A stretch of DNA of 45,665 nt, taken from Acidobacterium sp. Lineage in GTDB: Bacteria > Acidobacteriota > Terriglobia > Terriglobales > Acidobacteriaceae. A program made the position numbers and the translations under genes. The notes beneath the pieces are model-generated. The model was not told the origin of the DNA and did no database searches. It saw only the letters and a program-made list of their open reading frames with translations. The stretch covers positions 32,381 through 78,045 of the forward strand of contig PKVY01000101.1 of the NCBI GenBank assembly GCA_003131625.1. The letters are read 5' to 3'. Position 1 is the stretch's first letter, and every line of letters starts with the position of its first letter. This document shows, piece by piece, positions 9,050-26,266 of the stretch.

Positions 9050-9065
9050 TGTGACCCTTGTCACA
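9050..9065. promoter_or_regulatory. Crp/Fnr-type palindrome upstream of cydA
   Basis: TGTGACCCTTGTCACA is a perfect 6+6 inverted repeat and matches TGTGA-N6-TCACA at all ten positions. Its centre lies about 45 nt before the cydA ATG. An AT-rich AATTAC at 9025-9030 (minus strand) could be a -10 element placed for class II activation. The motif is seen directly; which regulator binds is inferred. Confidence 0.6.
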
Positions 9066-9201: not shown

Positions 9202-9534
9202 CTAGATAACGAGAGACACTCCGCCGTGGCGCCGGCGCGAGGGACGGACGGTAATCTCCACGTCCTGTCCGAGCGCGACAAGGAATTCCATGAGGCGCTC
9301 GACCGAGAAAGAGCCGGAGCGATTGCGCATCAGAGCGGAAACATGCGGTTGCCGAATGCTGAGTAGCTTCCCCGCTTCGACCTGGGTCAGGCCGCGTTCG
9401 CGGATGAGACGGTAGATCTCCAGCGTAAGCTTTGCCCTCAGCAATTCCCGTTCGGGATGGGGCAGGCCGAGGTCCGCGAACACATTGCCGGTGCTCTTTT
9501 GCGCCCGGACGGGGGTTCTGGCTCTCGCGCTCAT
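9202..9534 (-). CDS. XRE-family antitoxin (HigA-like)
   Basis: A 110-residue helix-turn-helix protein starting MSARARTPV. The HTH is clear: RERGLTQVEAGKLLSIRQPH followed by VSALMRNRSGSFSVERLMEF, as in the small XRE antitoxins paired with HigB/Gp49-type toxins. The ATG at 9534 is 1 nt after the toxin stop, so the two are coupled; an upstream ATG (9576) would overlap the toxin gene. Toxin-before-antitoxin order is typical of higBA. It should neutralise the toxin and repress the pair. A short inverted repeat just before the toxin start is a candidate operator. The gene ends 189 bp before cydA. Confidence 0.85.
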   Translation of the reverse strand: MSARARTPVRAQKSTGNVFADLGLPHPERELLRAKLTLEIYRLIRERGLTQVEAGKLLSIRQPHVSALMRNRSGSFSVERLMEFLVALGQDVEITVRPSRRRHGGVSLVI

Positions 9535-9535
9535 C

Positions 9536-9907
9536 TCAGTTCTGCCTTTCGCGGTGCAGGCGCTCGGCCTCTGCAAGGCGGCGCCGAATCAGATCCAGAT
9601 CCCGATGCGGGGTGGCAATGCCGCGCTTCGATTTCTTCTGGAAGGCATGCAGCACGTAGGCCGCCTCCGCAAAACGTACTGTGTACACTGCACGCCACGT
9701 ATCCCCTCCAAAATCCGAAACGATCTCGACCACGGAGCTTCCGCCGAAGCCTTTCATCGGCCTGGCCGCAGGATCGAGCTCATTGTGCTGTGCCGCATAC
9801 AGGGCCATGCCGATGTCGCGCCGGACCGGACGCGGAAACGAGCGCACATCCTTCCGGGTCGACCCCAGCCAGATCAGGGGCCGGCCTGGCTCGCCTTCAG
9901 TATACAT
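9536..9907 (-). CDS. HigB/Gp49-like toxin of a type II toxin-antitoxin system
   Basis: A 123-residue basic protein. The core (RPLIWLGSTRKDVRSFPRPV; GKGFGG-like KGFGGSSVVEIVSDFGGDTW; RAVYTVRF; YVLHAFQKKSKRGIATP) fits the phage Gp49-like/HigB toxin family of RelE-fold mRNA interferases that cleave ribosome-bound mRNA. The antitoxin follows after 1 nt. The ATG at 9907 lies 28 nt downstream of the NapC-like cytochrome stop (9935), and the short gap contains an inverted repeat. The module sits between a respiratory cluster and cydAB on the same strand. It may be a passenger or may stabilise the region; nothing in the sequence shows a metabolic role. Confidence 0.82.
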   Translation of the reverse strand: MYTEGEPGRPLIWLGSTRKDVRSFPRPVRRDIGMALYAAQHNELDPAARPMKGFGGSSVVEIVSDFGGDTWRAVYTVRFAEAAYVLHAFQKKSKRGIATPHRDLDLIRRRLAEAERLHRERQN

Positions 9908-9934: not shown

Positions 9935-11386
9935 CTACTGCAGGTGCAGCTCGTTCTGCAGTTGCAGATCATTGAGGACGCTGGGCTTGGTTTCGTCCAC
10001 GGCGAGGAGGTTGTGGCAGAGGCTGCAGTCGTTGCTGAGGGTCTTGCCGTCCTTCGTGGTGTGGCTGCCGTCGTGGCAGCGGAAGCAGCCGGGATAGGCC
10101 ATGTGTCCGATGTTGTTGGGGTACGTTCCCCACGTGACTTTCATGCTGGGGAAGACGTTGCGGTCGTAGATGGCGACGAGGCGGAGCGCGGAGGCATCGA
10201 TTTTGGCGCGCTGCGCGTTCCAGACGTCGGGATATTGGGTACGGTAATAGTCGTCGAGGCCGAAGGGGATCTTCGAGCCGGCTTCGGCTTGCGAGGCGTA
10301 GGTCGCCTGGATCAGCTGCAGAGCTTCCTTGTGCATGAAGGGCAGCGCGGGGCTGGGGTTGCCGTCGAGCATGGCTTCGTCGACGGCGTCCTCGGCGGTC
10401 TGGAAGACGTGGGTGGCCTGGTTGTGGCAATCCATGCAGTCCATGGTGCGGCGGATTCCTTTGACGGGGCCTTTCCAGTCGGAGCTGACGTATTCCGCAG
10501 TGGTGCCGTCGGGATTGGGCGCGCTGACAGCGATGATGGTCTGCGCTTCGTTGTCGGTGGCGACGTACTCGAAATTGTTGAGATGGTGTCCGTGAATGCC
10601 GCTGAAGTGCGATACGGAGTCGACACCACCGAGGTGCAGGACGAGCACGGTGCGGGTGACGGAGTTCTTCACGTCGTCGCCGAAGGTGGTTTTGACGAGC
10701 AGCTTTTCTCCGACGAAACGAGTGGGGGAGTGGCATTCCTCGCAGGTTTCGCGCGCCGGCCGCAGTCCGTTGAGGGTGGCACGGATGGGCGTGGGCCAGG
10801 TGTGGAAGGTGACTTCGATCATCTGTTTGGTGCCGTTGACCTTGGCCTGGACGTAGGACTTCATGCCCGAGCCGACATGGCACTGCACACAATCGACGTG
10901 CGCGTGCGGAGACACCTGATAGGCGGCCCACTGCGGGGCCATCACGTGGCAGGACTCGCCGCAGAAGTGGGGCGAATCCATATAGGCGACGCCGCGGTAG
11001 GTGGCCGTGCCGACGATGACAAAGTTGATGAAGGTGGCCACGACAACGATTTCAATTCCGCGGCGAAAGACGGGATTGCGGAAGTCGATCTGCGGATAGA
11101 CGGAAGGCACCTGGCCCGCGGCGATGAGCTGCCTGCGGCGCAGCCAGATGCCGATGGGGATGAAAACGAGCCCGAGGACGAAGAGCCCGGGCAGAAACAG
11201 ATCGAGAACAATGCCGAGATAGGGATTGGTGGAACCGCCGTGGCCGAAGATCGACACGATCCAGAAGCCGACCAGGACAAAGGCCGAGGCGGTGGTCAGC
11301 GCGCCACCGATGAGGCTTAACAGGTTATTGCCAAAGAAGAGGAAGGGCTCGAGCCATTCTTGCTTCAGTCTGCGCCACAGCGACAT
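9935..11386 (-). CDS. NapC/NirT-like membrane-anchored hexaheme cytochrome c
   Basis: A 483-residue protein. Three hydrophobic segments (about 15-45, 55-82 and 110-128) are followed by a periplasmic heme domain. Heme sites are FCGESCHVM (CX3CH, not CX2CH), CVQCH, CEECH, CMDCH, CFRCH and CSLCH, six in all. The first two are arranged as in the NapC/NrfH quinol dehydrogenase family, where the first site is followed by a nearby Met. No catalytic nitrite-reductase CXXCK site occurs here or nearby. It starts 9 nt after the cytochrome b stop with AGAGG upstream, so it is the last gene of the 11-heme/cytochrome b/NapC-like set. Likely role: moving electrons between membrane quinol and periplasmic cytochromes. 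Partner and direction are inferred. Confidence 0.85.
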   Translation of the reverse strand: MSLWRRLKQEWLEPFLFFGNNLLSLIGGALTTASAFVLVGFWIVSIFGHGGSTNPYLGIVLDLFLPGLFVLGLVFIPIGIWLRRRQLIAAGQVPSVYPQIDFRNPVFRRGIEIVVVATFINFVIVGTATYRGVAYMDSPHFCGESCHVMAPQWAAYQVSPHAHVDCVQCHVGSGMKSYVQAKVNGTKQMIEVTFHTWPTPIRATLNGLRPARETCEECHSPTRFVGEKLLVKTTFGDDVKNSVTRTVLVLHLGGVDSVSHFSGIHGHHLNNFEYVATDNEAQTIIAVSAPNPDGTTAEYVSSDWKGPVKGIRRTMDCMDCHNQATHVFQTAEDAVDEAMLDGNPSPALPFMHKEALQLIQATYASQAEAGSKIPFGLDDYYRTQYPDVWNAQRAKIDASALRLVAIYDRNVFPSMKVTWGTYPNNIGHMAYPGCFRCHDGSHTTKDGKTLSNDCSLCHNLLAVDETKPSVLNDLQLQNELHLQ

Positions 11387-11395
11387 GAAAACCTC

Positions 11396-12286
11396 TTATC
11401 CGGTGAAATACGCGCTCAAGGTCAGCACGAGGAGGGTCAGGCCAATCAATATAGCGGTAAACCCGACGACTCGGCTGAAATTTATCAGCCAGCGGGGAGG
11501 AGCGACTGTGATCCTTGTCTCAGCCTTGCCTTCGCTGAGCATGCGCTGGTATTCGTCCGGGCGGCGGGTTTTGAATTCTTCCTCGCTCTCGCGGCCGGTG
11601 AAGATGACCATGTCCATGGGAAAGCTGTCGGGGCGCAGATGGGTGTTCACGAAGTGGATGGAGAAGATGAAGAGGATGGCGAGCAGGCCCTCTTCGCTGT
11701 GGATGACAAGGACGGCATTGAGCGCCCAGCCGGGCAGGAAGTGCGCGAAGAACGGAGCGAACCACATCGCATATCCGGAGAAGCCGATGACCACCATGCC
11801 CCAGAAGACGGCCCAGTAGTCGAATTTCTCCCAGTACGCGTAGCGTTCGAACTTCGGCTTGGGACCGAGACCCAGGAACCAGCGAAAGTGCCCGAGGAGG
11901 TCCTTCACGTCTTTCCAGTTGGCGACCATGGAGGTGGGCCCCCAGAAGATTCCCTTCTCGCGCTTGAAAAGACCGCGCGCCAGGATTTCGCGCAGATGGA
12001 TAACGAAAGCAAGGGTGAGAACGAGCGCGCAGAATTTGTGAAAGAAGAGGATGGCGCCGAATCCTCCGACTTGCCGGGCAAAGCGGATCGCCCAGGGGGA
12101 GCCGCTGAAGCGCATCATGAGGCCAGTGGCCGCGAGAACCAAAAACGTGGTGAACAAAACCGCGTGGAGGTATCGCTGCGCGAGCGTGAAGCGAACGAAG
12201 TAGCGTGGCTTTTCCGGGGCCGCTGGGATGGCCGGAGTGCTGACTTCGATGGTCGGGACGGGCGTGTTCGGCGTCTGATCAGGCAT
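11396..12286 (-). CDS. membrane cytochrome b subunit (HydC/FdnI-like) of a multiheme complex
   Basis: A 296-residue protein with four or five transmembrane helices and a Pro-rich cytosolic N-terminus of about 30 residues. Candidate heme b ligands are the histidines in QRYLHAVLF, ILFFHKFCAL, FVIHLREIL, LVIHSEEGLL and FSIHFVNTH. It aligns by eye with the C-terminal part of the 13-heme fusion at 14045-16207: RFTLAQRYLH versus RLTLSERWQH; YWEKFDYWAVFWG versus YVEKAEYWALVWG; PMDMVIFTGRESE versus PVKWTVLTGRAPE. It overlaps the preceding 11-heme gene by 8 nt, with GGGAG as a ribosome site inside the overlap. It probably oxidises quinol and passes electrons to the 11-heme partner. Confidence 0.88.
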   Translation of the reverse strand: MPDQTPNTPVPTIEVSTPAIPAAPEKPRYFVRFTLAQRYLHAVLFTTFLVLAATGLMMRFSGSPWAIRFARQVGGFGAILFFHKFCALVLTLAFVIHLREILARGLFKREKGIFWGPTSMVANWKDVKDLLGHFRWFLGLGPKPKFERYAYWEKFDYWAVFWGMVVIGFSGYAMWFAPFFAHFLPGWALNAVLVIHSEEGLLAILFIFSIHFVNTHLRPDSFPMDMVIFTGRESEEEFKTRRPDEYQRMLSEGKAETRITVAPPRWLINFSRVVGFTAILIGLTLLVLTLSAYFTG

Positions 12287-13469
12287 TTTTTTCTCCCGAC
12301 GATTTGGTTTTGACCTGCTGGAAGCGGGATCGGATGAGCCACAGCACCGTGTGCAGCAGGAAGAAGGTGAGCACGCTGGCCAGCAACAGATTCATGAACA
12401 GCCGGATGTAGTAGAGCGCGGGATTCAGATGGCGATTCCGCGCATTGGCGTGGGGCTGATACTCGACGAAGCTGGCATTGGCTCCCGCATGGCACCGGCC
12501 GCAGGTCTTCACCAGGTTGGCTTTGTTGATGGGCGAGAGCGGATCGGAGGCGGGGAGAATTTCATGCGCGCCGTGGCAATCCCAGCAACGCGCCGTCTCG
12601 ACGTACCCACCCAGGAGACCGAGCTGCGAGTGGAAGGTATCGCGATAAGTAGTGAATTTGTCGCGATGGCAGGAACCGCAGATGGGCGTCGACTGCATGC
12701 GGAAATCCGCCGAAGTCGGTTCGATGATCGCGTGGGCGGTGTGGCAGTCGGTGCAGACAGGGGCGCTGGTGTCGCCGGCGGCGACGGCGTTGCCATGCAC
12801 ACCTTTCTGATATTGCTCGTTGATGCCGACGTGGCAGCTGCCGCAGGTGCCGGGAATATTGTTCCGGTAAGTGGCGCTCTGCGGGTTGGTGTGGCTCAGG
12901 ATTTTGTGCGAACCGTGGCAGCTGGTGCAGTTAGCGGCTACCAGCAGGCCTTCTTTGCCCAGCGCGAAGCCGTGGATGGAATCAATGTAGAGCGCGTAGA
13001 CGTTGGGCAGGTGGTATTTCTTCGCCATGGCTTCGTTGCCGTGGCAGGAGCCGCAGGTCTTCGGGATGTTCAGCGGATAGACAGGGGATTGCGGGTCAGT
13101 CTTCGGGACAATGAGGTGGGCATTGCCGTGGCAGCTGGTGCAGGGGTGGTCACTCGCCTTTGCATGCACACTGCCGGCGAGAGCCGCGCCCTCATCGGTG
13201 TGGCACGATTCGCACTGGACCGCAGCGGGGTGGTCGGGATGCGGATAATCGTGAATGTCCTTGTGGCAGTCATTGCATTTGAGGACGCCGTGAACGCTCG
13301 CGTGGAATTTGTCCGCGCTGACGCCAATGCTTTTGCCGTTCGCGTCCTGGAGGGTGGGGTCGTTGTGACAGGAGAGGCAATCGGCGTCAGCATGCGCGGG
13401 GCGCGCGGGTGCGGCCAGCAGCAGCACTGACGTAAAGAGAGTCAGGCTGAATGAGGAAACGGTCTTCAT
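12279..13469 (-). CDS. undecaheme c-type cytochrome with C-terminal membrane anchor
   Basis: A 396-residue protein with a Sec signal (MKTVSSFSLTLFTSVLLLAA, cut near AHA). It has eleven CXXCH sites (CLSCH, CNDCH, CESCH, CTSCH, CGSCH, CTSCH, CGSCH, CTDCH, CGSCH, CWDCH, CGRCH), many in the cytochrome c3/c7-like spacing with SVHG or FHS histidines. One transmembrane helix (about 348-375) follows. The last heme and helix resemble the matching region of the 13-heme fusion, where the chain continues directly into cytochrome b; here the cytochrome b is the next, overlapping gene. GGGAG precedes the ATG. Likely a periplasmic electron wire docked on the cytochrome b. Confidence 0.9.
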   Translation of the reverse strand: MKTVSSFSLTLFTSVLLLAAPARPAHADADCLSCHNDPTLQDANGKSIGVSADKFHASVHGVLKCNDCHKDIHDYPHPDHPAAVQCESCHTDEGAALAGSVHAKASDHPCTSCHGNAHLIVPKTDPQSPVYPLNIPKTCGSCHGNEAMAKKYHLPNVYALYIDSIHGFALGKEGLLVAANCTSCHGSHKILSHTNPQSATYRNNIPGTCGSCHVGINEQYQKGVHGNAVAAGDTSAPVCTDCHTAHAIIEPTSADFRMQSTPICGSCHRDKFTTYRDTFHSQLGLLGGYVETARCWDCHGAHEILPASDPLSPINKANLVKTCGRCHAGANASFVEYQPHANARNRHLNPALYYIRLFMNLLLASVLTFFLLHTVLWLIRSRFQQVKTKSSGEKNA

Positions 13470-13508
13470 TGCAGCTCCCGGTACTTCCTTCCGTTCGCCG
13501 CGGTGACC

Positions 13509-13538
13509 GGAAGAGGCACGTTGATGGCTGCCTCTTCC
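13509..13538. other. intercistronic stem-loop before the 11-heme gene
   Basis: GGAAGAGGCA (13509-13518) and TGCCTCTTCC (13529-13538) form a perfect 10-bp stem with a 10-nt loop. It lies between the small cytochrome c stop and the 11-heme start, with no T-tract. It may be an attenuator or mRNA-processing element rather than a full terminator. Confidence 0.6.
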
Positions 13539-13580
13539 CTCTTGCGCACCGCACCGATGACGGCCTTCGTTCCCTTTCCG

Positions 13581-13901
13581 CTACTTCTGCAGGGTGCGGA
13601 TGAAGGTGACAACGTCCTTAATCTGGGCATCGGTCAGCTTGCCGTTGTAGGCAGGCATTTTGCCTTTGCCGTCTTTGGTGGTGGCGATGAGCCCAGCGTC
13701 CGTGGCCTTCACTACGTCCGGATCCTTGAAGGACGGGATCTTCATCATCTTCCCCATCGGCGTTGCAGCCGTTCCGTCGGGGCCGTGGCACATGGCGCAT
13801 TTGGCTTTGTAGGTGTCGGCACCGGCGCTCTGCGCAAAGGCAGGCGCCGCAATGGAGGCGGCGAGCAGGATCATAGCCGCGGTTCTGATGCGATGCTTCA
13901 T
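13581..13901 (-). CDS. monoheme cytochrome c (second copy)
   Basis: A 106-residue precursor with a signal peptide (MKHRIRTAAMILLAASIAAP, cut at AFA before Q24) and one heme site, CAMCHG. The axial Met is probably in GKMPAY, and the end is a class I cytochrome c helix (LTDAQIKDVVTFIRTLQK). ATG 13901 has GAAGGAG 8-9 nt upstream; the longer in-frame start 29 codons earlier would bury the signal peptide. The mature part is about 67% identical (56 of 83, counted by hand) to the cytochrome at 16346-16666. Each copy stands just before one multiheme/cytochrome b module. It probably shuttles electrons in the periplasm from its module to the outer-membrane conduit. Confidence 0.92.
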   Translation of the reverse strand: MKHRIRTAAMILLAASIAAPAFAQSAGADTYKAKCAMCHGPDGTAATPMGKMMKIPSFKDPDVVKATDAGLIATTKDGKGKMPAYNGKLTDAQIKDVVTFIRTLQK

Positions 13902-13973
13902 AGGTGATGCTCCTTCAGGGGTCATTCGGTCCCAAGTCCTTCCCGTTGATACATCGCGGGAGATGGCCTGGTC

Positions 13974-13989
13974 TGTGATATTTGCCACA
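13974..13989. promoter_or_regulatory. Crp/Fnr-type site upstream of the second cytochrome module
   Basis: TGTGATATTTGCCACA matches TGTGA-N6-TCACA at nine of ten positions and sits inside a longer CTGTG/CACAG inverted repeat. It is about 80 nt upstream of the small cytochrome c ATG (13901), in the 143-nt gap after the 13-heme fusion. It suggests an internal promoter for the downstream four genes. Confidence 0.5.
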
Positions 13990-14044
13990 GACAGGCGGGT
14001 TCATCTTACAGATTTGCCGGTTTAGCCGGGCTGCGCGGCCTGGT

Positions 14045-16207
14045 TCACTCTTTGCCCTCCGGATTAGGATTCGGCGTGGGCGCCGGGCCGGTTGTTGCCG
14101 TGGGGTTCTGGTTCGGGGGATCTTTTTCGTTCAGCTCGCGGACCTCGTGTTCGGGCGCGCGCCCGGTAAGGACGGTCCACTTCACGGGGTAAATGTCGGG
14201 GTCGAACATGACGGCGTAGAAGTGCCAGATGAGGATGGCGAGCGTGGCCAAAATCGCCTCATAGAAATGAATCGCCGTGCTGACAGCGAGGACGGCCGCG
14301 GGATGCGGGAGGTGGGCAAGGATCCAGTCGTTGAGCCAGAGCAGCACACCGGTGACGGCCATGACGGCGGTGCCCCACACCAGCGCCCAGTACTCGGCCT
14401 TTTCGACGTAATTGAACCGGCGGTAAAGCGGGAGCCGGTCGCGGCGGCCGAGATTGTATTCGACGGTCTGGATAGCTTCCTTCGCATCCCGCACGTCGGG
14501 AATCATGTCTTTGAGCCAGCGGCGGCCGCTCTTCTTTATGGACATGTAGACGATGTGGTACACCGAAGCGCCGATGAGGACGACACCGGCGATGCGGTGA
14601 ACCCAGCCGCGGATGGGCAAGCCATGTTCCCAGCGAACGAGGGGCGCGGCCCAGAAAGAGTGCGGGAACTTGAGGGCAAAGCCGGTGATGACCAGCACGA
14701 TGAAACTGACCAGCAACAGCACGTGCTGCCAGCGTTCACTGAGAGTGAGCCGGATTTGGCCGGGGCTCTGGCGATAGCGCGCGAGCGCGGCGCGGGCCTT
14801 GCGCCGCAAATCGAGGAGATTGTGCAGCAGCATGAGCCCGATCGTGACGGGAATGACAATAAAGTAGAAGATTTTGACGAAGTCGAGGATGCGCCCGCCG
14901 GGAGTGGTCCTCGACATTGCGTGCACCGGCCCGATGGCAAAACGGCTGCCCGCGTCGTTGTGGCACTGGCCGCACGTCTTGCTTAGATTGGCGTGATTGA
15001 CGGTGGAGCGCGGATCGCTGGACGGATAAATGTTGTGAACGCCGTGGCAGCTGGCGCAATTAGCGACAGTCTGGCGGCCCTCGCGCGCGGCGAGCCCGTG
15101 ATAGCTGTCCTCATACGTCGGCACGCGATCCTGGGGCATGGCGAAGCCGGCCATCAGCGTCGTGTCGGCGTGGCAGCGGGAGCAGGCTTCCTGCGAGACG
15201 TTGGCCATGAAAACCGGCGAGCCGGGATCGCCAGGGGCGAGGATCTTGTGCTCACTGTGGCAATCGGTGCAGGTAGCCGCCTGCAGAACGCCTTTCGCGA
15301 CGGCCTGACCGTGAATGCTTTGCGCGTAGGTGTTGTAGACGCCGGCGTGGCACCGGCCGCAGGTAGAGGCGACGTTTTGCTTCCATATCTTTGAATGCGG
15401 ATCGGAGACGGGCAGGATGTCGTGCGTGCCGTGGCAGTCATTGCAGGTGGCAGCGTTTTCGTTGCCCTTCTGGAGGGCGCGTCCGTGCACGCTCTGGCGC
15501 CAGGCCTCGACGGGGCGCACTTCGGTGAACATATATTTCGCGGCGAGTTGTGGATTGGAGTGGCAGGACCCGCAAGTATCGGGCAGATGCTGTTTGCTCA
15601 CCGGCGAGCGCGGATCGCTGGACGGCAGGGCGGCGTGCGCCGAGCCATGGCAGCTCCTGCAGGTGGGAACATCGGCGTTGCCGTGATCGAGCGCGCGGCC
15701 ATGGACGCTGGCCCGGTACTGCTCGACTTCGGTCGCGTGGCAGGTGGCGCAGAACTGCGGACCGGCGACAGCCTTCGTCACGTTGCCGGTGCCGTGGCAG
15801 GCGATGCAGGTTTGCGGATCATTGGGATTGCCGAGAGCCGTGTGAGCGCCCGCCGTCATTTCTTTGGCAGCGTCAGCGTGGCAGGTAATGCAGGAGGCGG
15901 AAGCGGTCTTCGCATTGTGCGACTTCGCGGAGGCTCCGGCGTGGCAATCCACGCAACCCAGGCTGCCGTGCGGGCCTTTCATGTGCACGGAGGGATTGAC
16001 GGTGATGTCTTTGCCCTGGGAATTCTTCAGGCCCGTGGACGAACCATGACACAGCAGGCAATCGGAAGACTGCTGTGCTTGTGCGGGAGGAACGAACGAT
16101 GCGGCGATGAAAAGAACGGATACGAGACAGCTGTTAATCAGGTGTCTGTGGGCCTGAATAACAGCGGAACATCGTTCCTCAGGCACTTCTCCCGGGCAGG
16201 TCCCCAT
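14045..16207 (-). CDS. 13-heme c-type cytochrome fused to a membrane cytochrome b (CbcL-like architecture)
   Basis: A 720-residue protein. A signal peptide (hydrophobic 24-44, AQA before QQ) is followed by thirteen CXXCH sites between about 50 and 425: CLLCH, CVDCH, CITCH, CIACH, CATCH, CRSCH, CGSCH, CNDCH, CGRCH, CTDCH, CSRCH, CASCH, CGQCH. Next come an anchor helix (about 444-466) and a four-helix cytochrome b domain (about 490-690) with His in SERWQHVLL, WVHRIAG, VYHIVY, AIHFYEA and IWHFYAV. The tail is Pro/Asn-rich. The order resembles Geobacter CbcL, an inner-membrane quinol oxidase for extracellular electron transfer, though with more hemes. ATG 16207 is the only well-placed ATG, but its ribosome site is weak, so the exact start is uncertain. 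It lies between the two monoheme cytochrome genes. Confidence 0.88.
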   Translation of the reverse strand: MGTCPGEVPEERCSAVIQAHRHLINSCLVSVLFIAASFVPPAQAQQSSDCLLCHGSSTGLKNSQGKDITVNPSVHMKGPHGSLGCVDCHAGASAKSHNAKTASASCITCHADAAKEMTAGAHTALGNPNDPQTCIACHGTGNVTKAVAGPQFCATCHATEVEQYRASVHGRALDHGNADVPTCRSCHGSAHAALPSSDPRSPVSKQHLPDTCGSCHSNPQLAAKYMFTEVRPVEAWRQSVHGRALQKGNENAATCNDCHGTHDILPVSDPHSKIWKQNVASTCGRCHAGVYNTYAQSIHGQAVAKGVLQAATCTDCHSEHKILAPGDPGSPVFMANVSQEACSRCHADTTLMAGFAMPQDRVPTYEDSYHGLAAREGRQTVANCASCHGVHNIYPSSDPRSTVNHANLSKTCGQCHNDAGSRFAIGPVHAMSRTTPGGRILDFVKIFYFIVIPVTIGLMLLHNLLDLRRKARAALARYRQSPGQIRLTLSERWQHVLLLVSFIVLVITGFALKFPHSFWAAPLVRWEHGLPIRGWVHRIAGVVLIGASVYHIVYMSIKKSGRRWLKDMIPDVRDAKEAIQTVEYNLGRRDRLPLYRRFNYVEKAEYWALVWGTAVMAVTGVLLWLNDWILAHLPHPAAVLAVSTAIHFYEAILATLAILIWHFYAVMFDPDIYPVKWTVLTGRAPEHEVRELNEKDPPNQNPTATTGPAPTPNPNPEGKE

Positions 16208-16240
16208 ACTTCTTCTTCCGATTCCGTCTGGAGGAGCTGG

Positions 16241-16265
16241 AGGCTCCGGGGGAATCTCCGAGCCT
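16241..16265. other. intercistronic stem-loop before the 13-heme fusion
   Basis: AGGCTC (16241-16246) pairs with GAGCCT (16260-16265), and weaker internal G-C pairs extend the stem. It lies in the 138-nt gap between the first small cytochrome c stop and the 13-heme start. Confidence 0.4.
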
Positions 16266-16345
16266 GAGCGCGCAACCGCGCTCGAACCCGGTACTTCGCG
16301 GCGGGGTCCACAGGCAAAGCTTCCCTGCTGGCCACCGCTCTCGTT

Positions 16346-16666
16346 CTACTTCTGCAGGGTGCGGATGTACGTGACGACGTCCTGAATCTGGGCGTCGGTC
16401 AGCTTGTTTGCGTATCCCTGCATCTTGCCCACGCCGTCTTTGGTCTGCTTGAAGAGCTCGGCGTCGGTGGCCTTGATTTCTTCGGGTGATTTGAACGAGC
16501 GGACTTTCATGTTTTTACCGACGGGCGTGTTGCCGAGGCCGTCGGCGCCATGGCACATAGCGCATTTGGCCTTGAAGGTCGCTTCGCCGGCCTGTTGCGC
16601 CATAGCCGGGACAGCCAGAGAAGCACTCAGCAGAGTGAATGCTGCAATACGGAGACTTGATTTCAT
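16346..16666 (-). CDS. monoheme cytochrome c (first copy)
   Basis: A 106-residue precursor starting MKSSLRIAAFTLLSASLAVP, with signal cleavage near AMA before QQ. One heme site CAMCHGADG, a probable axial Met in GKMQGY, and the class I C-terminal helix (LTDAQIQDVVTYIRTLQK). AAGGGG lies upstream of ATG 16666; the frame is open further upstream, but that part lacks cytochrome character. It is a paralogue of the 13581-13901 gene. It sits between the outer-membrane barrel gene and the 13-heme/cytochrome b fusion, bracketed by stem-loops at 16684-16709 and 16241-16265. It is a plausible soluble carrier between inner-membrane oxidase and the decaheme conduit. Confidence 0.92.
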   Translation of the reverse strand: MKSSLRIAAFTLLSASLAVPAMAQQAGEATFKAKCAMCHGADGLGNTPVGKNMKVRSFKSPEEIKATDAELFKQTKDGVGKMQGYANKLTDAQIQDVVTYIRTLQK

Positions 16667-16683
16667 GTTCAGCCCCTTGCTGC

Positions 16684-16709
16684 GATGGCCGGGGCGAACC
16701 CCGGCCATC
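16684..16709. other. strong intercistronic stem-loop after the barrel gene
   Basis: GATGGCCGGGG (16684-16694) and CCCCGGCCATC (16699-16709) form a perfect 11-bp GC-rich stem with a CGAA tetraloop. It lies 17 nt after the barrel stop and 17 nt before the small cytochrome c ATG (16666). There is no T-tract, so partial termination or protection of an mRNA 3' end is more likely than a full stop. Confidence 0.7.
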
Positions 16710-16725
16710 GTTTCACTGCGGTCAC

Positions 16726-19293
16726 TCAGAATTCGTAATGGAATCCGAGTGTGATGTTGTTGGCACGGAAGGGCCGGGCGGCGGTCTCGCCGGACGGCGG
16801 CAGGGTCAGACCGGTTTGCAGGCCGGCGAGACTCGATGAGTTGCATGCAACCACGGGCACCGGGGTTGCAGGCGTGGGATTGGAGGTGCTGCAGTAGGGT
16901 GCGCCCGAGGCTCCGCCCTCGGCGTAGCTGAAGTAGTTGTATTCCATCTTCCAGATCCATCCAGGATGGACCGTGTAGTCGACATTCACGAAGGGAGACT
17001 GATACTTCGAGACCAGCGAACCGGCGACGTCGCGCGCGTCGTTGTAGAAGCGGCTGCCGTCAACGGAGTTGATGCGATAGCCAATCGCGCCCTTGAGGGA
17101 AGTGGAGGGAGAGATGCGGAGAGCCGCCGAGCCGGAATTTGTCGGAGCATCCATGAAGTCCCTGACCGGCCCGAACTCATAGTAGGTGGTTCCCCTGACG
17201 GAAGCGCCGGGGCATGCTGTCCCGCTGGGCGTCGAAGCGCCCGGCATGGTGGCGGTGGCGCCGCCGTCGTAGCAGATGTTGGTCCGGGCATAGACGTCGC
17301 TCCAGGCATAGTTGAAGTCGAACCCATAGTGCTCGTTCGGCAACAGCTGCGCACCCATGCTGGCCACCCGGCTGTAATCGAAATGACCCAGCGGGCCGTC
17401 GAGGGGCGCGGTACCTGTGTTGTTGGTGTTGTTATGCCGTTCCAGGTCGTTATAGGCGCCGGACAGGGTCGCCCAGGACTTCGCCCTGTACAGGGTGTGC
17501 ATTCTGTAGTGCTGCAACTGCCGCGGCGCAATCGGAGTAAATACGTTGTCGTCGTAAAGCATCTCGACGCTGGCATTGATAGTCCAGTTGCTGGTGGGAC
17601 GCAGAGCGACGCTCACGATTCCGCCGTCCTCGTTGATGGTGACGGTTCCGTTATTCGTTGCACCCGCAACCAAAGCTGTGTTGTGCGGGATACCTTCGGC
17701 GATCACGTGATTGCGGTAGCGATAGGTGAGCGAGATCGTGGCGCGAGACCAGCCATTCCAGGTCCCGGTCACGTCGTTGGTGATGAACCTCTGGCCGAAG
17801 AAGTCCGGCAGAGGTACGCCGACCGAGCCGCTGCCTTCAAAGGTGGAGGCCCCTCCGGCGGCGTTGGTCGAGGTCAACCCACCCGCATAGTTGATGGTTT
17901 CATTGCCGGCCGTCGCAGGCGTCGACACCGTGGTGACACCGGTCATGGTGGTGGTTCCCGGTTGCTGCACGTTGGAGAAGCTGGCCTGATCTTCGAGACT
18001 GAAGTTCTGCGTAGCCTGCCAGACGACGCCGTAATCGGCCGCTGTGACCTCACGCTTTGCGGATGCGGCGGCGGTATAGGTAAGCGAGCGCGTCGTCTTG
18101 GCCAGCCCCTGGAAGTTCTCGTAGTAGTCCGGCATGTTCATCTTCGCGTTGGTGTAGCGAAAATCGCCATTCATCGAGACGTTCTTAATGCTGGAACTCT
18201 GGAATCGGAAGATCTCAGTGGGATAGAGGAAACGCGTCGGCTGGGAGCGCAGGTAGCTGGTAATGACACCGCAGGCAGGATTAATCACCGGCGCTCCGCC
18301 CGGACTTGACGGCGGAGAAAGGATAGGAGTGGTGCCGGTACTGTTTGCATTGCAGGCGCTGGCCGAGTAGGGCGTCAGGCTGTCGTAGTTAGCCAGAAGA
18401 GCAGCACGGGTGCCATCCGGTTCCTGCACGGTGAAGTAAGCGGGATCCATGGTGAAGTAAGAGTCGGCCTTGTAGTGGTCGATCTGTTCTTCCAGGGTCA
18501 GCCGGGTGAGCGGCACGGGCTTCCAGTCGACCGCCCCCAGGAAGTCGTCGGTGCTGTTGCGCTGATTTTCCTCGAGCAGAACATCGTAGGCGCTGGCAAA
18601 CTGATAACCGCTGGGGCTGAGGCTCGGGCCGGCAAAGATGTTCTGCGAGTATCCGAACCGGTAGGTCAGCGTCGACAGCGGGTGGAAGGTGAGGTTGGTA
18701 TCGGTCATGCGACGCACCGTGTCAAACGCGAACGGCGACACGTTTACCTGCGGCCAGCCCATAGAGCCGGTTGGCGATGCGGTGGGGCCGATCGGAATCG
18801 ACTGACCCGACGGGATATTCGGATTGCCGAGCAGATCGTAGTCGAAGTACTGGCGATCGCGGCGGAAGAGGCCGGAGAACTCGTAAACATTCCCCTTGTG
18901 GAAAGCGATCCTGGCAAAGTTATATGGATCGCCGCCAAATCCGCTGCCCGCTGCGCTCAGGGAGTCGAAGAGCGTGTTCTTAGCTCCAGGCAGCGCGCGC
19001 ATCTCGAAGGTCTCGCCCAGCACGCGCGGCCCGGACTGCACATTGACCAGCGTGTCGTACATCGCCTGGCTGCCGGAGACGGCAGATATGTGCCCGCCCA
19101 GATCGACGGTCTGATGGACGGTGTATCCACTCGGGACAGAGGCCGGTTGTGCATCGGGCGCCGGGGCCTGGGCGACAGCGAAGCCCGCCGTCATCAAAAG
19201 AATGGCGACTCCAATTCCCCCTGCGATGCACTGGACCAATGTGGGAGAGGGCTGTTGATTGGAAAGCCGAGGAAACCAGCCTGTCTTCGTCAT
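16726..19293 (-). CDS. MtrB/PioB-like outer-membrane beta-barrel protein
   Basis: An 855-residue protein with an N-terminal hydrophobic signal (about 24-45, ending FAVAQAP). It is rich in alternating aromatic strands and ends FRANNITLGFHYEF, with the terminal Phe used by outer-membrane barrels. Blocks such as YDTLVNVQSGPRVLGETFEM, GFGGDPYNFARI and FSGLFRRDRQYFDYDLLGNP resemble MtrB/PioB-type porins, which hold a decaheme cytochrome across the outer membrane. It directly follows a DmsE/MtrA-like decaheme gene, the diagnostic gene pair. ATG 19293 has GTGAGG nearby; a GTG 12 nt upstream is an alternative start. It is longer than typical MtrB (about 700), with large Ser/Gly/Pro loops. I see no N-terminal CXXC like that of Shewanella MtrB. 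Confidence 0.82.
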   Translation of the reverse strand: MTKTGWFPRLSNQQPSPTLVQCIAGGIGVAILLMTAGFAVAQAPAPDAQPASVPSGYTVHQTVDLGGHISAVSGSQAMYDTLVNVQSGPRVLGETFEMRALPGAKNTLFDSLSAAGSGFGGDPYNFARIAFHKGNVYEFSGLFRRDRQYFDYDLLGNPNIPSGQSIPIGPTASPTGSMGWPQVNVSPFAFDTVRRMTDTNLTFHPLSTLTYRFGYSQNIFAGPSLSPSGYQFASAYDVLLEENQRNSTDDFLGAVDWKPVPLTRLTLEEQIDHYKADSYFTMDPAYFTVQEPDGTRAALLANYDSLTPYSASACNANSTGTTPILSPPSSPGGAPVINPACGVITSYLRSQPTRFLYPTEIFRFQSSSIKNVSMNGDFRYTNAKMNMPDYYENFQGLAKTTRSLTYTAAASAKREVTAADYGVVWQATQNFSLEDQASFSNVQQPGTTTMTGVTTVSTPATAGNETINYAGGLTSTNAAGGASTFEGSGSVGVPLPDFFGQRFITNDVTGTWNGWSRATISLTYRYRNHVIAEGIPHNTALVAGATNNGTVTINEDGGIVSVALRPTSNWTINASVEMLYDDNVFTPIAPRQLQHYRMHTLYRAKSWATLSGAYNDLERHNNTNNTGTAPLDGPLGHFDYSRVASMGAQLLPNEHYGFDFNYAWSDVYARTNICYDGGATATMPGASTPSGTACPGASVRGTTYYEFGPVRDFMDAPTNSGSAALRISPSTSLKGAIGYRINSVDGSRFYNDARDVAGSLVSKYQSPFVNVDYTVHPGWIWKMEYNYFSYAEGGASGAPYCSTSNPTPATPVPVVACNSSSLAGLQTGLTLPPSGETAARPFRANNITLGFHYEF

Positions 19294-19348
19294 AGGAAGC
19301 CTCACTTATGAATGCGTCGACCGAATCGAAATCCTGAAACCTGTTATC

Positions 19349-19396
19349 GGATCCGGGCCGCGCGTGCCTTGTTGCAGGCAGGCGCAGCCCGGGTCC
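19349..19396. other. intercistronic stem-loop between the decaheme and barrel genes
   Basis: GGATCCGGGC (19349-19358) pairs with GCCCGGGTCC (19387-19396) with one T-G wobble. An inner stem TGCCT/AGGCA (19365-19369, 19376-19380) closes a 6-nt loop. It lies in the 110-nt gap between the two genes and has no T-tract. Confidence 0.6.
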
Positions 19397-19403
19397 ATGA
19401 ACC

Positions 19404-20324
19404 CTACCTGAGGAACGCCTGGTTGATGTTCGAGCCGTGAATGTAGGTGTGGCAGCTGGTGCAGGGCGCCAGCTCCGCCGACCCCTGACCCATCCCAATG
19501 ACGGTGTGAGAGGAAACCGGGCTGTGGCACTGGTTGCACAGGGTGTTGACCGACGGCATGTTCAACATCCGGGCGTTCTGAGAACCATGGGGAGAGTGGC
19601 AACCCACGCATCCCTCGGCCTTGACCGCGGCGTGCTCGTACACGAACGGCCCGCGCGTCTCCGCGTGGCACTTGGTGCAGATCATGTTCTGATCGGCGGT
19701 GGACTTCAGGTTGTTGTTCCCGAAGGTTCCGTGCGGATCGTGACAGTCGCTGCACTTGACCGCGCCTTCGTTCACCGGGTGATGGAACGGCATATCGAAG
19801 GCCGGCTTCGTATCGGTGTGGCACTGGAAGCAGAGCTTGGGCTGTTCGGCCTTGAGCAGATGCTCCGGTGTCTCGGAAGCGTGGACGCTGTGGCAGTCGA
19901 GACAGCCGACATTGGCTTTGGCGTGCGGGGAGCGCTCGAAGTTGGGGTGCGCGCCGGCATGGCAGCCGAGGCAGGTCTCATCGGTCTCTTTGGTGCTGAG
20001 CTTGTCGAAGCGGCGAATCTTCGTGACGTCGCCACCGCCCTCGACGTGAGCCTTGCCCGGTCCGTGACAGCTTTCGCAGGTCACACCCTTGCCGGCATGT
20101 TCGAGAGCGAGACGGGAATGAGGATTGTCTCCGAATTTCTTCACGACGTCCGCGTGACAAGTGGCGCAGGTATCCTGACCGACGAAATCCGTCGAGTCGG
20201 CTGCCGCCTTCGGTTGGGAAGTTGACACTTGCTGCTGGCCACCGCCGGCAGCGAGCGCCAGCCTGGTTCCTGCGAACCCGGTCAGTAGCAGAAAGCACGC
20301 CATGCTGGTTAGAAATCGACGCAT
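19404..20324 (-). CDS. DmsE/MtrA-like periplasmic decaheme cytochrome c
   Basis: A 306-residue protein with signal MRRFLTSMACFLLLTGFAG (cut near ALA before AGGG). Ten CXXCH sites follow: CATCH, CESCH, CLGCH, CLDCH, CFQCH, CSDCH, CTKCH, CVGCH, CNQCH, CTSCH. Number, length and spacing match the DmsE/MtrA/PioA family, whose members insert into an MtrB/PioB barrel to make a heme wire across the outer membrane. The barrel gene comes next, 110 nt downstream. ATG 20324 has GAGGTGA 7 nt upstream. The 387-nt upstream gap has two GTGAT-N4-ATCAC palindromes. No outer-surface MtrC/OmcA-like cytochrome is encoded here, so the final electron acceptor is unknown; reversal (electron uptake, as with PioA) is possible. 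Confidence 0.9.
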   Translation of the reverse strand: MRRFLTSMACFLLLTGFAGTRLALAAGGGQQQVSTSQPKAAADSTDFVGQDTCATCHADVVKKFGDNPHSRLALEHAGKGVTCESCHGPGKAHVEGGGDVTKIRRFDKLSTKETDETCLGCHAGAHPNFERSPHAKANVGCLDCHSVHASETPEHLLKAEQPKLCFQCHTDTKPAFDMPFHHPVNEGAVKCSDCHDPHGTFGNNNLKSTADQNMICTKCHAETRGPFVYEHAAVKAEGCVGCHSPHGSQNARMLNMPSVNTLCNQCHSPVSSHTVIGMGQGSAELAPCTSCHTYIHGSNINQAFLR

Positions 20325-20437: not shown

Positions 20438-20451
20438 GTGATGCAAATCAC
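20438..20451. promoter_or_regulatory. Crp/Fnr-type palindrome 1 upstream of the decaheme gene
   Basis: GTGATGCAAATCAC is a perfect 5+5 inverted repeat with a 4-nt spacer. It contains TGAT-N4-ATCA, the core of the Fnr box (TTGAT-N4-ATCAA), and also fits AGTGA-N6-TCACA. Its centre is about 120 nt before ATG 20324. Confidence 0.6.
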
Positions 20452-20474
20452 ATGGACACATATCTTTGAGCGCT

Positions 20475-20488
20475 GTGATTTGAATCAC
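20475..20488. promoter_or_regulatory. Crp/Fnr-type palindrome 2 upstream of the decaheme gene
   Basis: GTGATTTGAATCAC has the same half-sites as the 20438 palindrome, 37 nt away centre to centre. Two identical half-site pairs in one gap make chance unlikely. Confidence 0.6.
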
Positions 20489-20711: not shown

Positions 20712-21410
20712 TCAGTTTCGCTTTTCCGCGCCGCCACGGGGTGCAGAAACGGCGCCCTGGCGCTTCGCCCGGCGCTCCGCGAGCCACGCACGCCATTCGT
20801 CCATGCCCTTCCCGGTTGAGCAGGAAACTTCGAGGATTTCGATATCGGGATTGACCTGGCGGGCATTGGCTTTGGCCGCCTCGATGTCGAATGGAACATA
20901 AGGAAGCAGATCGATTTTGGTGAGAATGAGCAGCGCGGCCTTGTGAAAGATGGATGGGTATTTGAGCGGCTTGTCTTCGCCTTCGGTGACGCTGAGCAGG
21001 ACGATCTTTGCTTCTTCGCCGAGATCGTAGCTGGATGGGCAAACGAGATTGCCGACATTCTCGATGAACAGGACGTCAATATTTTCGAGAGGCCACGGCT
21101 GAAGGGCGCGGTCGATCATCTTGCCGTCGAGATGGCAGACGCCGCCGGTGACGATCTGCTGCACGGGAAAGCTGTAGCGCATCAGCCGCCGCGCGTCGTT
21201 CTCGGTCTGGAGGTCGCCGGTGAGGACGGCGATCTTCTCACCCGGAGGGAAGACGGCCAGGGTGCTTTCGAGCAGCGTGGTCTTGCCGGAGCCGGGCGCG
21301 CTGATGAAGTTGAGGCAAAGGATGTTGTGTTCTTCGAAGCGGCGGCGCAGATCGAGCGCGATGCGCTGGTTTTCGTTCAGGACTTTCTCTTCGACACGAA
21401 CGACGGTCAT
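20712..21410 (-). CDS. hypB: hydrogenase nickel incorporation GTPase HypB
   Basis: A 232-residue GTPase that works with HypA to load nickel into the [NiFe] hydrogenase large subunit. It has the P-loop SAPGSGKTTLLE (38-48), the metal-site motif GGVCHLDGKM with Cys and His, IENVGNLVCPSSYDLGE, and the NKxD-like TKIDLL. It lacks the His-rich N-terminal nickel store seen in some HypB proteins, and the C-terminus is basic. The ATG overlaps the hypA stop (ATGA, 21407-21410). It is the last gene of the hydrogenase set on the minus strand, followed by a weak hairpin. hypC, D, E and F are absent from the window. Confidence 0.95.
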   Translation of the reverse strand: MTVVRVEEKVLNENQRIALDLRRRFEEHNILCLNFISAPGSGKTTLLESTLAVFPPGEKIAVLTGDLQTENDARRLMRYSFPVQQIVTGGVCHLDGKMIDRALQPWPLENIDVLFIENVGNLVCPSSYDLGEEAKIVLLSVTEGEDKPLKYPSIFHKAALLILTKIDLLPYVPFDIEAAKANARQVNPDIEILEVSCSTGKGMDEWRAWLAERRAKRQGAVSAPRGGAEKRN

Positions 21411-21766
21411 GGTTCCTCCACTTCGACGAAAGCGATGTCCAGCTGGTCCCCGCTGACGAAGCTGGTGTGATGGCTCGTGCAGCCCGGGCAGGGCGCATCG
21501 GTAAACGGCGAAAGCTGCGGCGATACATACTCACGGCCGCAATCCTCGCAGCGATTCATGCGGGGGCAGTTTTCAGCGGTGAGCACAACTTTTTCGTCCT
21601 CGGTTCCGGCAATGATGCACTCGAATGCAAAACGCAGCGCATCGACGTCGACGCCGGAAAGCACGCCCACGCGCACACCGATGCCCATGAGCTTCGCTCC
21701 AGGACGCCGCGCGGTCTCCGTGCGGCCTGCCTCGAGGATCGAGTTGGCGATGCCCACTTCGTGCAT
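21407..21766 (-). CDS. hypA: hydrogenase maturation nickel metallochaperone HypA
   Basis: A 119-residue protein with the invariant start MHEVGIANSILE; His2 is the nickel ligand. The zinc site comprises two CXXC pairs (RCEDC and PCPGC). It delivers nickel to the hydrogenase large subunit with HypB, whose start overlaps its stop by 4 nt. It follows the maturation protease gene after 105 nt, a gap holding the 14-bp palindrome CAGGCAGCTGCCTG (21784-21797). It could therefore have its own promoter or continue the hydrogenase transcript. Confidence 0.95.
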   Translation of the reverse strand: MHEVGIANSILEAGRTETARRPGAKLMGIGVRVGVLSGVDVDALRFAFECIIAGTEDEKVVLTAENCPRMNRCEDCGREYVSPQLSPFTDAPCPGCTSHHTSFVSGDQLDIAFVEVEEP

Positions 21767-21783
21767 CAGCGCAGTCCTTTATG

Positions 21784-21797
21784 CAGGCAGCTGCCTG
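21784..21797. repeat. 14-bp perfect palindrome upstream of hypA
   Basis: CAGGCAGCTGCCTG reads the same on both strands and lies 18 nt before the hypA ATG. It could be an operator or a chance GC palindrome; no known motif is matched. Confidence 0.3.
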
Positions 21798-21871
21798 GGT
21801 GAAAGTGTTTCATGGATTCCCCTGGGGTGGGGTCGTGCTTCAGGTGTGTCTTTTGGCGTGGGCCAGGCTGC

Positions 21872-22402
21872 TCACGCTACCGCGGGCTCCGGCTCACCGG
21901 CCGGGACCAGCACATCGATTTGAGCCCGCTCGATCTCCTGGGTCCACCGGCTAACCTGAGCGATGGCGGTCTCGACCAGCGCGGCCAGCGCACCTTCCGC
22001 CGTCGCGGTGAGCTGGGTGCCCCAGCCGATGATCTCCGGCTGAACACCGAGCACGACGATCTCTGCAGGCGCTCTGCCGGTCAGGCGGGCGGCGCCGATC
22101 AAATCGGAAAAACCCAGCAGGTGCACGCTCTTTGAAATCGGCAGATCGACGATTTCGTCGCCGGCGAAGCGCAGAAGCGTGCCCGGTGTCGCGCCCGCGT
22201 CAATGGCATCGAGCGCCAGCAGATGGGTGACGCCATCCAGCGGATGAAGCAGGTCGAGGCCCAGCGTGCCGCCTTCGATCAGGGAAACACACCGAGGGAA
22301 GCGCGGATCTGCGCGAAGCTGCTGGATGGCCAGCATGCCGACGGCGTCGTCGGTGCGCATGAGGTTGCCGAGACCGAGAACGGCGATGCGGGCAGGATTC
22401 AT
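21872..22402 (-). CDS. [NiFe] hydrogenase maturation endopeptidase (HyaD/HupD/HybD family)
   Basis: A 176-residue protease. The family layout is visible: LGLGNLMRTDDAVGM near the N-terminus with an acidic nickel-binding residue, LLALDAIDAG, and SVHLLGFSDL with the conserved histidine. It trims the C-terminal extension of the hydrogenase large subunit after nickel insertion. ATG 22402 overlaps the cytochrome b stop (ATGA) and is preferred; ATG 22411, three codons earlier, is the alternative. Its place right after the structural genes shows it is dedicated to this hydrogenase. Its substrate has an unusually long tail (about 41 residues after the last His). Confidence 0.9.
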   Translation of the reverse strand: MNPARIAVLGLGNLMRTDDAVGMLAIQQLRADPRFPRCVSLIEGGTLGLDLLHPLDGVTHLLALDAIDAGATPGTLLRFAGDEIVDLPISKSVHLLGFSDLIGAARLTGRAPAEIVVLGVQPEIIGWGTQLTATAEGALAALVETAIAQVSRWTQEIERAQIDVLVPAGEPEPAVA

Positions 22403-23190
22403 CGATCCCATTCCCGGTTGCGATGGATTTTGCGCTTGCTGAAGAGTTCCCGAGGTTCCAGGCTGGCGATCTTCATTTCCTCGTCGATGGTCTGGTCATC
22501 CACGAACTTGTAACCGCTGAAGACACTTTCCATCTCCCCGTTGCGCTCCGTCATGGCCACCAGCACCGCGCTGTAAACGTGGTGGATGAAGAAGGCCATG
22601 AGGAAGAACATGAAGAGGAAGTGGATCATCCGGATCCACTGGATGTCGATGACGCGCGGAATCCATCCCACGAAAAAGCGGAGCGTCGGCGAGCCTTCCA
22701 CGGTGGCGAAAAGCACCAGACCGGTGATGCACTCGCACGCGATGAGGAAATAGACCACGATGTAGGTGAGGCCGGCGAGGGTGTTGTGGCCGATCTGCTC
22801 GAAGGGCTTGCGCTGCTGGAAGGAGTAGTAGCGGACCATCGCCTTGAGGCTGTTCCAACGGCGGCGAGTGAGCGGAAGGAACTGACGCCAGCGCGCCCAG
22901 TGATTGCCGGCGAAGAACCAATAAAAGCGCACGATCAGCGCGCCGATCAGCTCAAAACCGGCCAACTCGTGGATGAAACGGACCGTCCCCATGGTCCAGG
23001 AACGCGGACCAGGAAAGATAAGGAACGGGTGATTCATGTAGAGGCCGGTCCAGGTGAGAACCGTAACCGCGGCCACGATGCCCCAGTGGGCCAGGCGGAC
23101 GGGCAGCTCCCAGACGTAAACGGGAACGAGGTGTTCTTCGCCGGCCGCTACGTGTTTCTTCGGAGGAGCAGGACGAACGAGCGTGGCCAT
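22399..23190 (-). CDS. Ni/Fe-hydrogenase b-type cytochrome subunit
   Basis: A 263-residue integral membrane diheme cytochrome b of the HyaC/HupC/HoxZ family that accepts electrons from the small subunit and reduces quinone. Several long hydrophobic helices are visible. Histidines suited to heme ligation occur in ELPVRLAHWG, RFIHELAGFE, GHNTLAGL and IHHVYSAV, and YVWELPVRLAHW is a family signature. ATG 23190 shares its A with the large-subunit stop (TGATG), so translation is coupled; an in-frame GTG one codon earlier is less likely. The maturation protease follows with a 4-nt overlap. Confidence 0.94.
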   Translation of the reverse strand: MATLVRPAPPKKHVAAGEEHLVPVYVWELPVRLAHWGIVAAVTVLTWTGLYMNHPFLIFPGPRSWTMGTVRFIHELAGFELIGALIVRFYWFFAGNHWARWRQFLPLTRRRWNSLKAMVRYYSFQQRKPFEQIGHNTLAGLTYIVVYFLIACECITGLVLFATVEGSPTLRFFVGWIPRVIDIQWIRMIHFLFMFFLMAFFIHHVYSAVLVAMTERNGEMESVFSGYKFVDDQTIDEEMKIASLEPRELFSKRKIHRNREWDR

Positions 23191-26187: not shown

Positions 26188-26203
26188 TGTGACTGCCATC
26201 ACA
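26188..26203. promoter_or_regulatory. Crp/Fnr-type site upstream of the hydrogenase operon
   Basis: TGTGACTGCCATCACA matches TGTGA-N6-TCACA at all ten positions. Its centre is about 83 nt before the small-subunit ATG, in the divergent hydrogenase/usp gap. Confidence 0.6.
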
Positions 26204-26266
26204 GGAGCGGTGTTCCGACTCCCAATCCGGCCTCAGACATTAAGCAACAGGGGGCGACGATTCGCT

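Follow-up and report, generated by a model that had tools for sequence, protein, structure and literature searches.

A multiheme cytochrome cluster and a hydrogenase operon share one locus

We analyzed a stretch of 45,665 nucleotides (the window) from an Acidobacterium sp. genome of 5.39 Mb in 148 contigs, in which it spans positions 32381 to 78045 of contig 63. The window carries eight genes in an unbroken series on the minus strand (9935 to 20324), which encode a putative electron conduit to the cell surface. A first-pass annotation, made from the DNA letters alone, had described eight consecutive same-strand genes with 10+1+13+1+11+6 = 42 heme motifs. A script recount returned the same genes and the same 42 motifs, of which 41 are CXXCH and 1 is CXXXCH. 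The series begins with a periplasmic decaheme cytochrome of the MtrA/DmsE family (19404 to 20324; 306 amino acids, 10 CXXCH motifs) and a predicted outer-membrane barrel assigned to a divergent part of the MtrB/PioB superfamily by profile-profile match and gene pairing (16726 to 19293; 855 amino acids ending in HYEF, no heme motif). These are followed by a monoheme cytochrome c (16346 to 16666; PF13442), a CbcL-like fusion of 13 c-type heme motifs and a cytochrome b561-type membrane domain (14045 to 16207; 720 amino acids), a second monoheme cytochrome c (13581 to 13901; PF13442), an 11-heme cytochrome with a C-terminal membrane anchor (12279 to 13469), a cytochrome b with no heme motif (11396 to 12286), and an ImcH-like putative quinol oxidase with 5 CXXCH motifs and 1 CXXXCH motif (9935 to 11386).

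Because the gaps between these genes measure only −8 to 143 bases, we read them as one operon. Multiheme models of Pfam and NCBIfam match the cluster proteins, and 76 of 80 related loci (the best 80 of 159, which lean toward close relatives) again have the decaheme and barrel genes side by side; the cluster is therefore not a chance assembly. Searches with Pfam and NCBIfam found no reductase gene within the run.

The functional unit extends beyond the eight genes. Directly upstream on the same strand lies a hydrogenase operon (26112 to 20712) in the order small subunit (24982 to 26112), large subunit (23190 to 24980; PF00374, 763.7 bits), cytochrome b subunit (22399 to 23190; PF01292, 89.6 bits), and, from domain matches, maturation protease, HypA, and HypB (20712 to 22411). 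Downstream of the run, after two small genes, domain matches identify cytochrome bd oxidase genes on the minus strand, cydA and then cydB (9012 to 6597), whose product is probably an alternative quinol oxidase co-regulated with the conduit. The two genes that separate the run from cydAB (9202 to 9907) form a Gp49-like and helix-turn-helix pair, likely a toxin-antitoxin system; a similar helix-turn-helix gene is present in one related locus (L041). The first-pass annotation had overlooked the hydrogenase, the ImcH architecture, the split CbcL-type paralogue, and the shared control sites.

The decaheme gene is paired with the gene for a probable divergent MtrB-type barrel

The decaheme protein scored 263.6 bits against TIGR03508, the DmsE model (cut-off, 192.2 bits; E 1.7e-78). 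Its best match in the Protein Data Bank (PDB) was chain 6r2q_A (E 4.9e-39), which the PDB listing names cystathionine beta-synthase; we take 6r2q to be the Shewanella MtrCAB structure. These data agree with the DmsE/MtrA membership first proposed. A hydrophobic stretch from residue 8 at the N terminus was taken as an export signal.

The proposal that the barrel is of the MtrB/PioB type was upheld only by an indirect route. In profile searches the barrel had no direct Pfam or NCBIfam match, MtrB models included, an outcome that the first-pass annotation had named in advance as one half of a refutation. A sequence search of the PDB was discarded as a means of identification, since its hits were limited to fluorescent proteins, all of them weak (E 0.26 or higher). 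Among seven relatives scanned, one reached PF11854 below threshold (L210; 19.7 versus 23 bits). Profile-profile comparison with hhalign was then made between an alignment of the window's barrel, 14 closer barrels, and 5 of 6 fetched distant barrels (A4; L212 left out) and an alignment of 26 of 30 fetched PF11854 proteins (A3; L172, L181, L183, and L191 left out). The two matched over 645 columns with a probability of 99.3% and an E value of 3.6e-20. The same relationship was recovered as a chain, from core to distant barrels (E 1.2e-56) and from distant barrels to MtrB (E 6.1e-26). Reversed, shuffled, and TonB-receptor alignments, the last of only 3 sequences, gave E values of 0.0047 or weaker. 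On this match, obtained through intermediates and with negative controls, we place the barrel with MtrB/PioB, probably as a divergent branch that shares ancestry with MtrB and works in a similar manner. The start codon of its gene is probably the ATG at 19293 rather than the GTG at 19305.

The failed MtrB/PioB profile would also be expected if the barrel were no conduit and the decaheme protein stayed in the periplasm to serve a periplasmic reductase. We regard this explanation as very improbable: the profile-profile match to MtrB covers most of the barrel's length and is absent from the controls, the decaheme and barrel genes are strictly paired, and the run holds no reductase gene.

The pairing was examined among relatives, with open reading frames in the related loci assigned at a query coverage of at least 35%. 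Among the best 80 of 159, the barrel's relatives are Acidobacteria, mostly metagenome-assembled genomes of the Acidobacteriaceae, and the closest is that of another Acidobacterium sp. (83% identity). The decaheme gene lies immediately upstream of the barrel gene in 76 of the 80 loci, and the other four barrels sit at a contig end. Ten heme motifs in one frame were counted in 74 of the 76 upstream genes, and a 10-heme gene also precedes the barrel in 6/6 distant barrels from outside the family. The core pair is present in the named isolates Silvibacterium bohemicum, Bryocella elongata, Granulicella, and Terracidiphilus gabretensis; an ImcH-like gene was not seen in every named isolate's stretch examined. 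A further genome, probably that of Acidobacterium capsulatum (L259), encodes a decaheme protein, a barrel, a cytochrome c, and an ImcH-like protein, and its cydAB genes lie roughly 7 kb beyond these. We take A. capsulatum and Acidicapsa both to be Acidobacteriaceae.

For the core, the first-pass word "unusual" is not supported: the barrel is present in 103 of 200 sampled Acidobacteriaceae genomes, including the host's own, and mtrA and mtrB homologues of Acidobacteriaceae are noted in PMC5900883. Acidobacterial decaheme proteins are likewise noted in a passage of PMC3669403. In the phylum, PF11854 was found in 71 of 297 genomes.

As in MtrAB, PioAB, and MtoAB, the gene for an MtrA-family cytochrome with ten hemes adjoins that for a homologous barrel; the MtrB barrel is described as having 28 predicted strands (PMC4245776) and as enclosing MtrA. 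Unlike in those systems, the window's barrel fails PF11854, and the partners are an ImcH-like protein and a hydrogenase rather than CymA.

Up to three candidate quinol oxidases lie beside the conduit

The last protein of the run has three N-terminal membrane segments, one CX3CH motif, and five CX2CH motifs. This is the architecture by which ImcH is described in a section of PMC6295460, namely, three N-terminal transmembrane segments, a CX3CH motif beside the membrane domain, and five to nine CX2CH motifs. We liken the window's protein to Geobacter ImcH on that description. The first-pass name, a six-heme NapC-like protein, had the six motifs right and missed the ImcH architecture. An ImcH-like gene was found within 8 kb downstream of the barrel in 52 of the 65 loci that have at least 3.5 kb of downstream sequence. 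Full-length copies in relatives kept CX3CH in 54 of 54 cases and five CX2CH motifs in 51 of 54; simple hydropathy counted three transmembrane segments in 17 of them and two in 37. Unlike Geobacter imcH, the window's gene sits in a run with decaheme and barrel genes. The 2018 survey in PMC6295460 reports no mtrAB or mtoAB adjoining imcH.

As an alternative to the outward flow favored below, the conduit could work inward as a PioAB- or MtoAB-like system, with Fe(II) or some other donor outside the cell as the source of electrons for the quinone pool or for cytochrome bd. The proximity of cydAB would suit inward flow, as would the finding of no separate MtrC-type surface cytochrome, since some mtr clusters, mainly those of Fe(II) oxidizers, are also described without one in PMC4245776. 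With no such protein found, the first-pass description of the route as complete is not supported. However, the conserved partner of the pair is ImcH-like in 52/65 testable relatives, and ImcH is implicated only in quinol oxidation in the account given in PMC6295460. The same locus already has a hydrogenase to supply reductant, and the control sites and regulators described below fit oxygen limitation, which is itself inferred. We therefore consider inward flow unlikely.

The fusion protein combines 13 CXXCH motifs with a PF01292 match over the cut-off (55.7 bits), and TIGR01583 scored below its cut-off. Passages of PMC6295460 and PMC9129911 describe CbcL, MtoC, and MtrH as a multiheme c-type N terminus joined to a HydC/FdnI-like cytochrome b, with six C-terminal transmembrane helices in the former source, and describe mtoC and mtrH as accompanying mtrAB or mtoAB in other bacteria. 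Simple hydropathy gave five C-terminal helices in the fusion versus the six of this description, and the fusion has 13 hemes versus 9 in Geobacter CbcL. Its architecture bears out the first-pass view that the fusion is CbcL-like.

The 11-heme protein is 35% identical to the heme part of the fusion, and the cytochrome b at 11396 to 12286 is 29% identical to its membrane part, with a PF01292 score just below the cut-off (30.0 versus 30.1 bits). The two genes overlap by 8 bases. Judged by this paralogy, the 11-heme protein and the cytochrome b together form a relative of the CbcL-like fusion that is divided between two genes. CbcBA is the layout to which we liken the split pair, and the resemblance is in layout only. 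Because the fusion is present in just 7 and the full 11-heme protein in just 11 of the 80 loci, both may be later additions to the conserved core. Elsewhere in the host genome, contig 18 holds a 1019-amino-acid open frame with a membrane-protein-like N terminus and 11 c-type heme motifs (L133, 6311 to 9367).

The hydrogenase belongs to a clade that recurs beside the conduit

The small and large hydrogenase subunits match their families and carry the L1 and L2 cysteines of [NiFe] group 1 enzymes. The nearest solved structure to the large subunit is 3myr (best PDB match, 3myr_B). Like other group 1 [NiFe] hydrogenases, the operon encodes small, large, and cytochrome b subunits together with maturation genes. 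It differs from them in its linkage to an outer-membrane conduit and in one residue of the small subunit, where the motif QDCAGNTES places an asparagine at a proximal-cluster cysteine position; other group 1 enzymes have ECTGCTES or similar. Among the 30 best acidobacterial small subunits fetched, the asparagine form was found in 11, which include the window's protein and are the most similar ones, and cysteine was found in 19. Silvibacterium bohemicum is listed with a group 1f hydrogenase in PMC5900883, and its sole small-subunit match belongs to the window's clade. By this analogy, the window's enzyme is probably of HydDB group 1f.

Of the 102 further genomes of the family that have the barrel, 80 were searched for the hydrogenase, and 19 of them carry the clade (at least 67% identity). 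In 8 of these 19 genomes, from five genera, no more than 20 kb separates the hydrogenase from the barrel. In one genome of another genus (L245), the decaheme gene comes directly after the large-subunit and protease genes, and a palindrome of the type described below stands in between. In three genomes of one genus from another family (L246 to L248), the hydrogenase adjoins a decaheme gene and a classical MtrB gene, and an 11-heme CbcL-like match lies nearby in L246 and L247. Across the phylum sample, 5 of 11 loci of the asparagine clade are linked to a conduit.

Hydrogenases of another type, 39 to 45% identical to the window's, lie near the barrel in L061, L102, L109, L110, and L112; those of L102 and L110, the two checked, have Fe-S and NrfD subunits. 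Counted by genome, 2 of 17 have a hydrogenase of 42 to 46% identity at most 20 kb from the barrel. In L110 (12540 to 19424), the barrel gene is directly followed by an operon for the other type of hydrogenase with a 7-heme cytochrome, a cytochrome b, an Fe-S protein, and NrfD.

Shared palindromes precede the hydrogenase, decaheme, and cydA genes

The canonical FNR box TTGAT-N4-ATCAA was rejected as the control site of the decaheme gene, since the upstream DNA showed no enrichment of exact or one-mismatch copies (0 versus about 1.0 expected). Matches with two mismatches (45 versus 13.6 expected) led to the palindrome GTGA-N6-TCAC. The window has five such palindromes, and every one precedes hydrogenase, decaheme, or cydA genes. 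Two stand in front of the decaheme gene at a spacing of 37 bases (20438 to 20488; starts at 20438 and 20475), two lie between the hydrogenase operon and a divergent universal stress protein gene (26189 to 26281; starts at 26189 and 26268), and one lies upstream of cydA (9051 to 9064). In relatives, where positions were counted from the openings of the open reading frames, 63 of 76 loci have the palindrome in front of the decaheme gene, with 93 sites versus 1.9 expected. Across the whole host genome, GTGAYN4RTCAC has 62 sites and its reversed control has 1. This distribution suggests that the palindromes mark a respiratory Crp/Fnr regulon in Acidobacteriaceae. Further genomic palindromes were seen close to other genes for multiheme proteins and regulators.

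In 41 of the 80 loci, the 4 kb upstream of the barrel include a gene of the Crp/Fnr family on the opposite strand. Of these 41 genes, 39 encode a CX2CX8C motif and 40 a Crp-like RETVTR helix. The host genome's best Crp/Fnr homologues sit elsewhere. One of them, a Crp/Fnr-type protein (L157), has CX2CX8C, a later cysteine, and RETVTR; another homologue (L154) has a palindrome in front of its gene. Features of the Crp and Fnr proteins fit a regulator of this type that would act at the GTGA-N6-TCAC sites and sense oxygen.

The universal stress protein gene (26354 to 27271) lies on the plus strand, divergent from the hydrogenase operon. In some relatives, and at other places in the host genome, genes of this kind are again found close to Crp/Fnr genes and palindromes.

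The cydAB and universal stress protein genes adjoin palindromes of the same type, which would fit a role of the locus in redox poising or defense against oxidative stress. The cytochromes and cytochrome bd would then use electrons from H2 to remove O2 or peroxide, and extracellular transfer would be secondary. Two published statements point the same way, namely, that a group 1f hydrogenase of Geobacter has a role in oxidative stress defense, as cited within PMC6896113, and that anaerobic respiration is not typical of subdivision 1 and 3 strains, as stated in PMC5900883. However, this explanation accounts neither for the barrel-decaheme pair in all 76 loci that hold upstream DNA nor for the extra quinol oxidases, and we judge its chances to be slightly lower still than those of inward flow.

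Discussion

The reading we favor, with some confidence, is that this locus is a respiratory island under oxygen control that moves electrons from H2 and metabolism out of the cell to extracellular acceptors. Its gene content, protein families, conserved pairing, hydrogenase linkage, and palindrome enrichment are read from the DNA itself. To these we add an inferred scheme that covers complex formation, the direction and acceptor of the electrons, and the identity and signal of the regulator. In this scheme, the group 1 [NiFe] hydrogenase would oxidize H2 and its cytochrome b would reduce quinone, with the quinone pool fed by other dehydrogenases as well. At the inner membrane, as many as three multiheme oxidases would take electrons from quinol, namely, the ImcH-like protein, the CbcL-like fusion, and the split 11-heme protein with its cytochrome b. 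Electrons would cross the periplasm by way of the monoheme cytochromes c or directly along the long heme domains. The MtrA/DmsE decaheme protein inside the divergent MtrB-type barrel would then pass them across the outer membrane to Fe(III), humic matter, or another acceptor, with no MtrC-type surface cytochrome of its own encoded in the locus. A Crp/Fnr-type regulator at the GTGA-N6-TCAC sites would switch the hydrogenase, the conduit, and cytochrome bd jointly.

Several observations weigh against this interpretation. PF11854 has no match in the host genome up to an E value of 10, and the core barrel family alone matches MtrB weakly (E 8.9e-5; probability, 60%), as does the alignment of close-relative barrels (E 1.8e-4; 48.8%), which holds the window and 75 of the 80 loci (A2; L068, L110, L115, L116, and L117 left out). 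For a surface cytochrome, PF22113 gave no match over its cut-off to a separate MtrC/OmcA-type protein in the genome; scored as whole proteins, only the fusion (40.6) and the decaheme protein (30.7) reached the cut-off of 30. TIGR03507, run on ten cluster proteins, was passed by none (best, 31.3 versus 209.3 bits). In 11 of the 19 genomes that carry both, the hydrogenase is not within 20 kb of the barrel: it is 3.0 Mb away on the same contig in one and on a separate contig in ten. No conduit was found in the stretch taken at 6 of the 11 loci with the asparagine form (L250 to L255; L252 lies on a short contig). As for regulation, the Crp/Fnr gene of the relatives' loci is not beside the window's locus. 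Of 15 genomic palindromes fetched, 7 are no more than 350 bases from a predicted gene start, 3 fall inside a predicted gene, and 5 fit neither description. In the literature, a survey of 24 genomes reads the mtr operons of Acidobacteriaceae as incomplete, argues against Fe(III) reduction of the Shewanella or Geobacter type and calls anaerobic respiration not typical of these subdivisions (PMC5900883).

A more specific form of the outward-transfer reading can be offered tentatively, and we would not rely on it as a whole. Acidobacteria would have evolved a dedicated island for respiration from hydrogen to the outside, in which a hydrogenase clade with a changed ligand at the proximal iron-sulfur cluster is genetically tied to a divergent MtrA-MtrB conduit. 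Three quinol oxidases of different type (ImcH-, CbcL-, and split-CbcL-like), encoded in one operon, would serve the conduit and could match different acceptor potentials, and a single Crp/Fnr-type oxygen switch would govern the whole. The separate parts are known. What appears to be new is the combination of the divergent barrel with its links to ImcH and to the hydrogenase and with the shared control sites; a search of the open-licence literature found no report of imcH, or of a hydrogenase of the window's type, joined to MtrAB-type genes. Since the barrel fails the profiles and yet joins the superfamily, searches with MtrB/PioB profiles can miss a whole branch of conduits.

Iron reduction has been reported for acidophilic Acidobacteriaceae such as Acidobacterium capsulatum, and the review PMC8790237 lists both this species and Acidicapsa species as Fe(III) reducers. 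The combination described here would put iron reduction by a major soil group on a genetic footing. The conserved decaheme-barrel core, mostly with an ImcH-like gene, supplies specific testable genes in named isolates, and the hydrogenase linkage leads to the prediction of H2-driven extracellular reduction in soil and peat.

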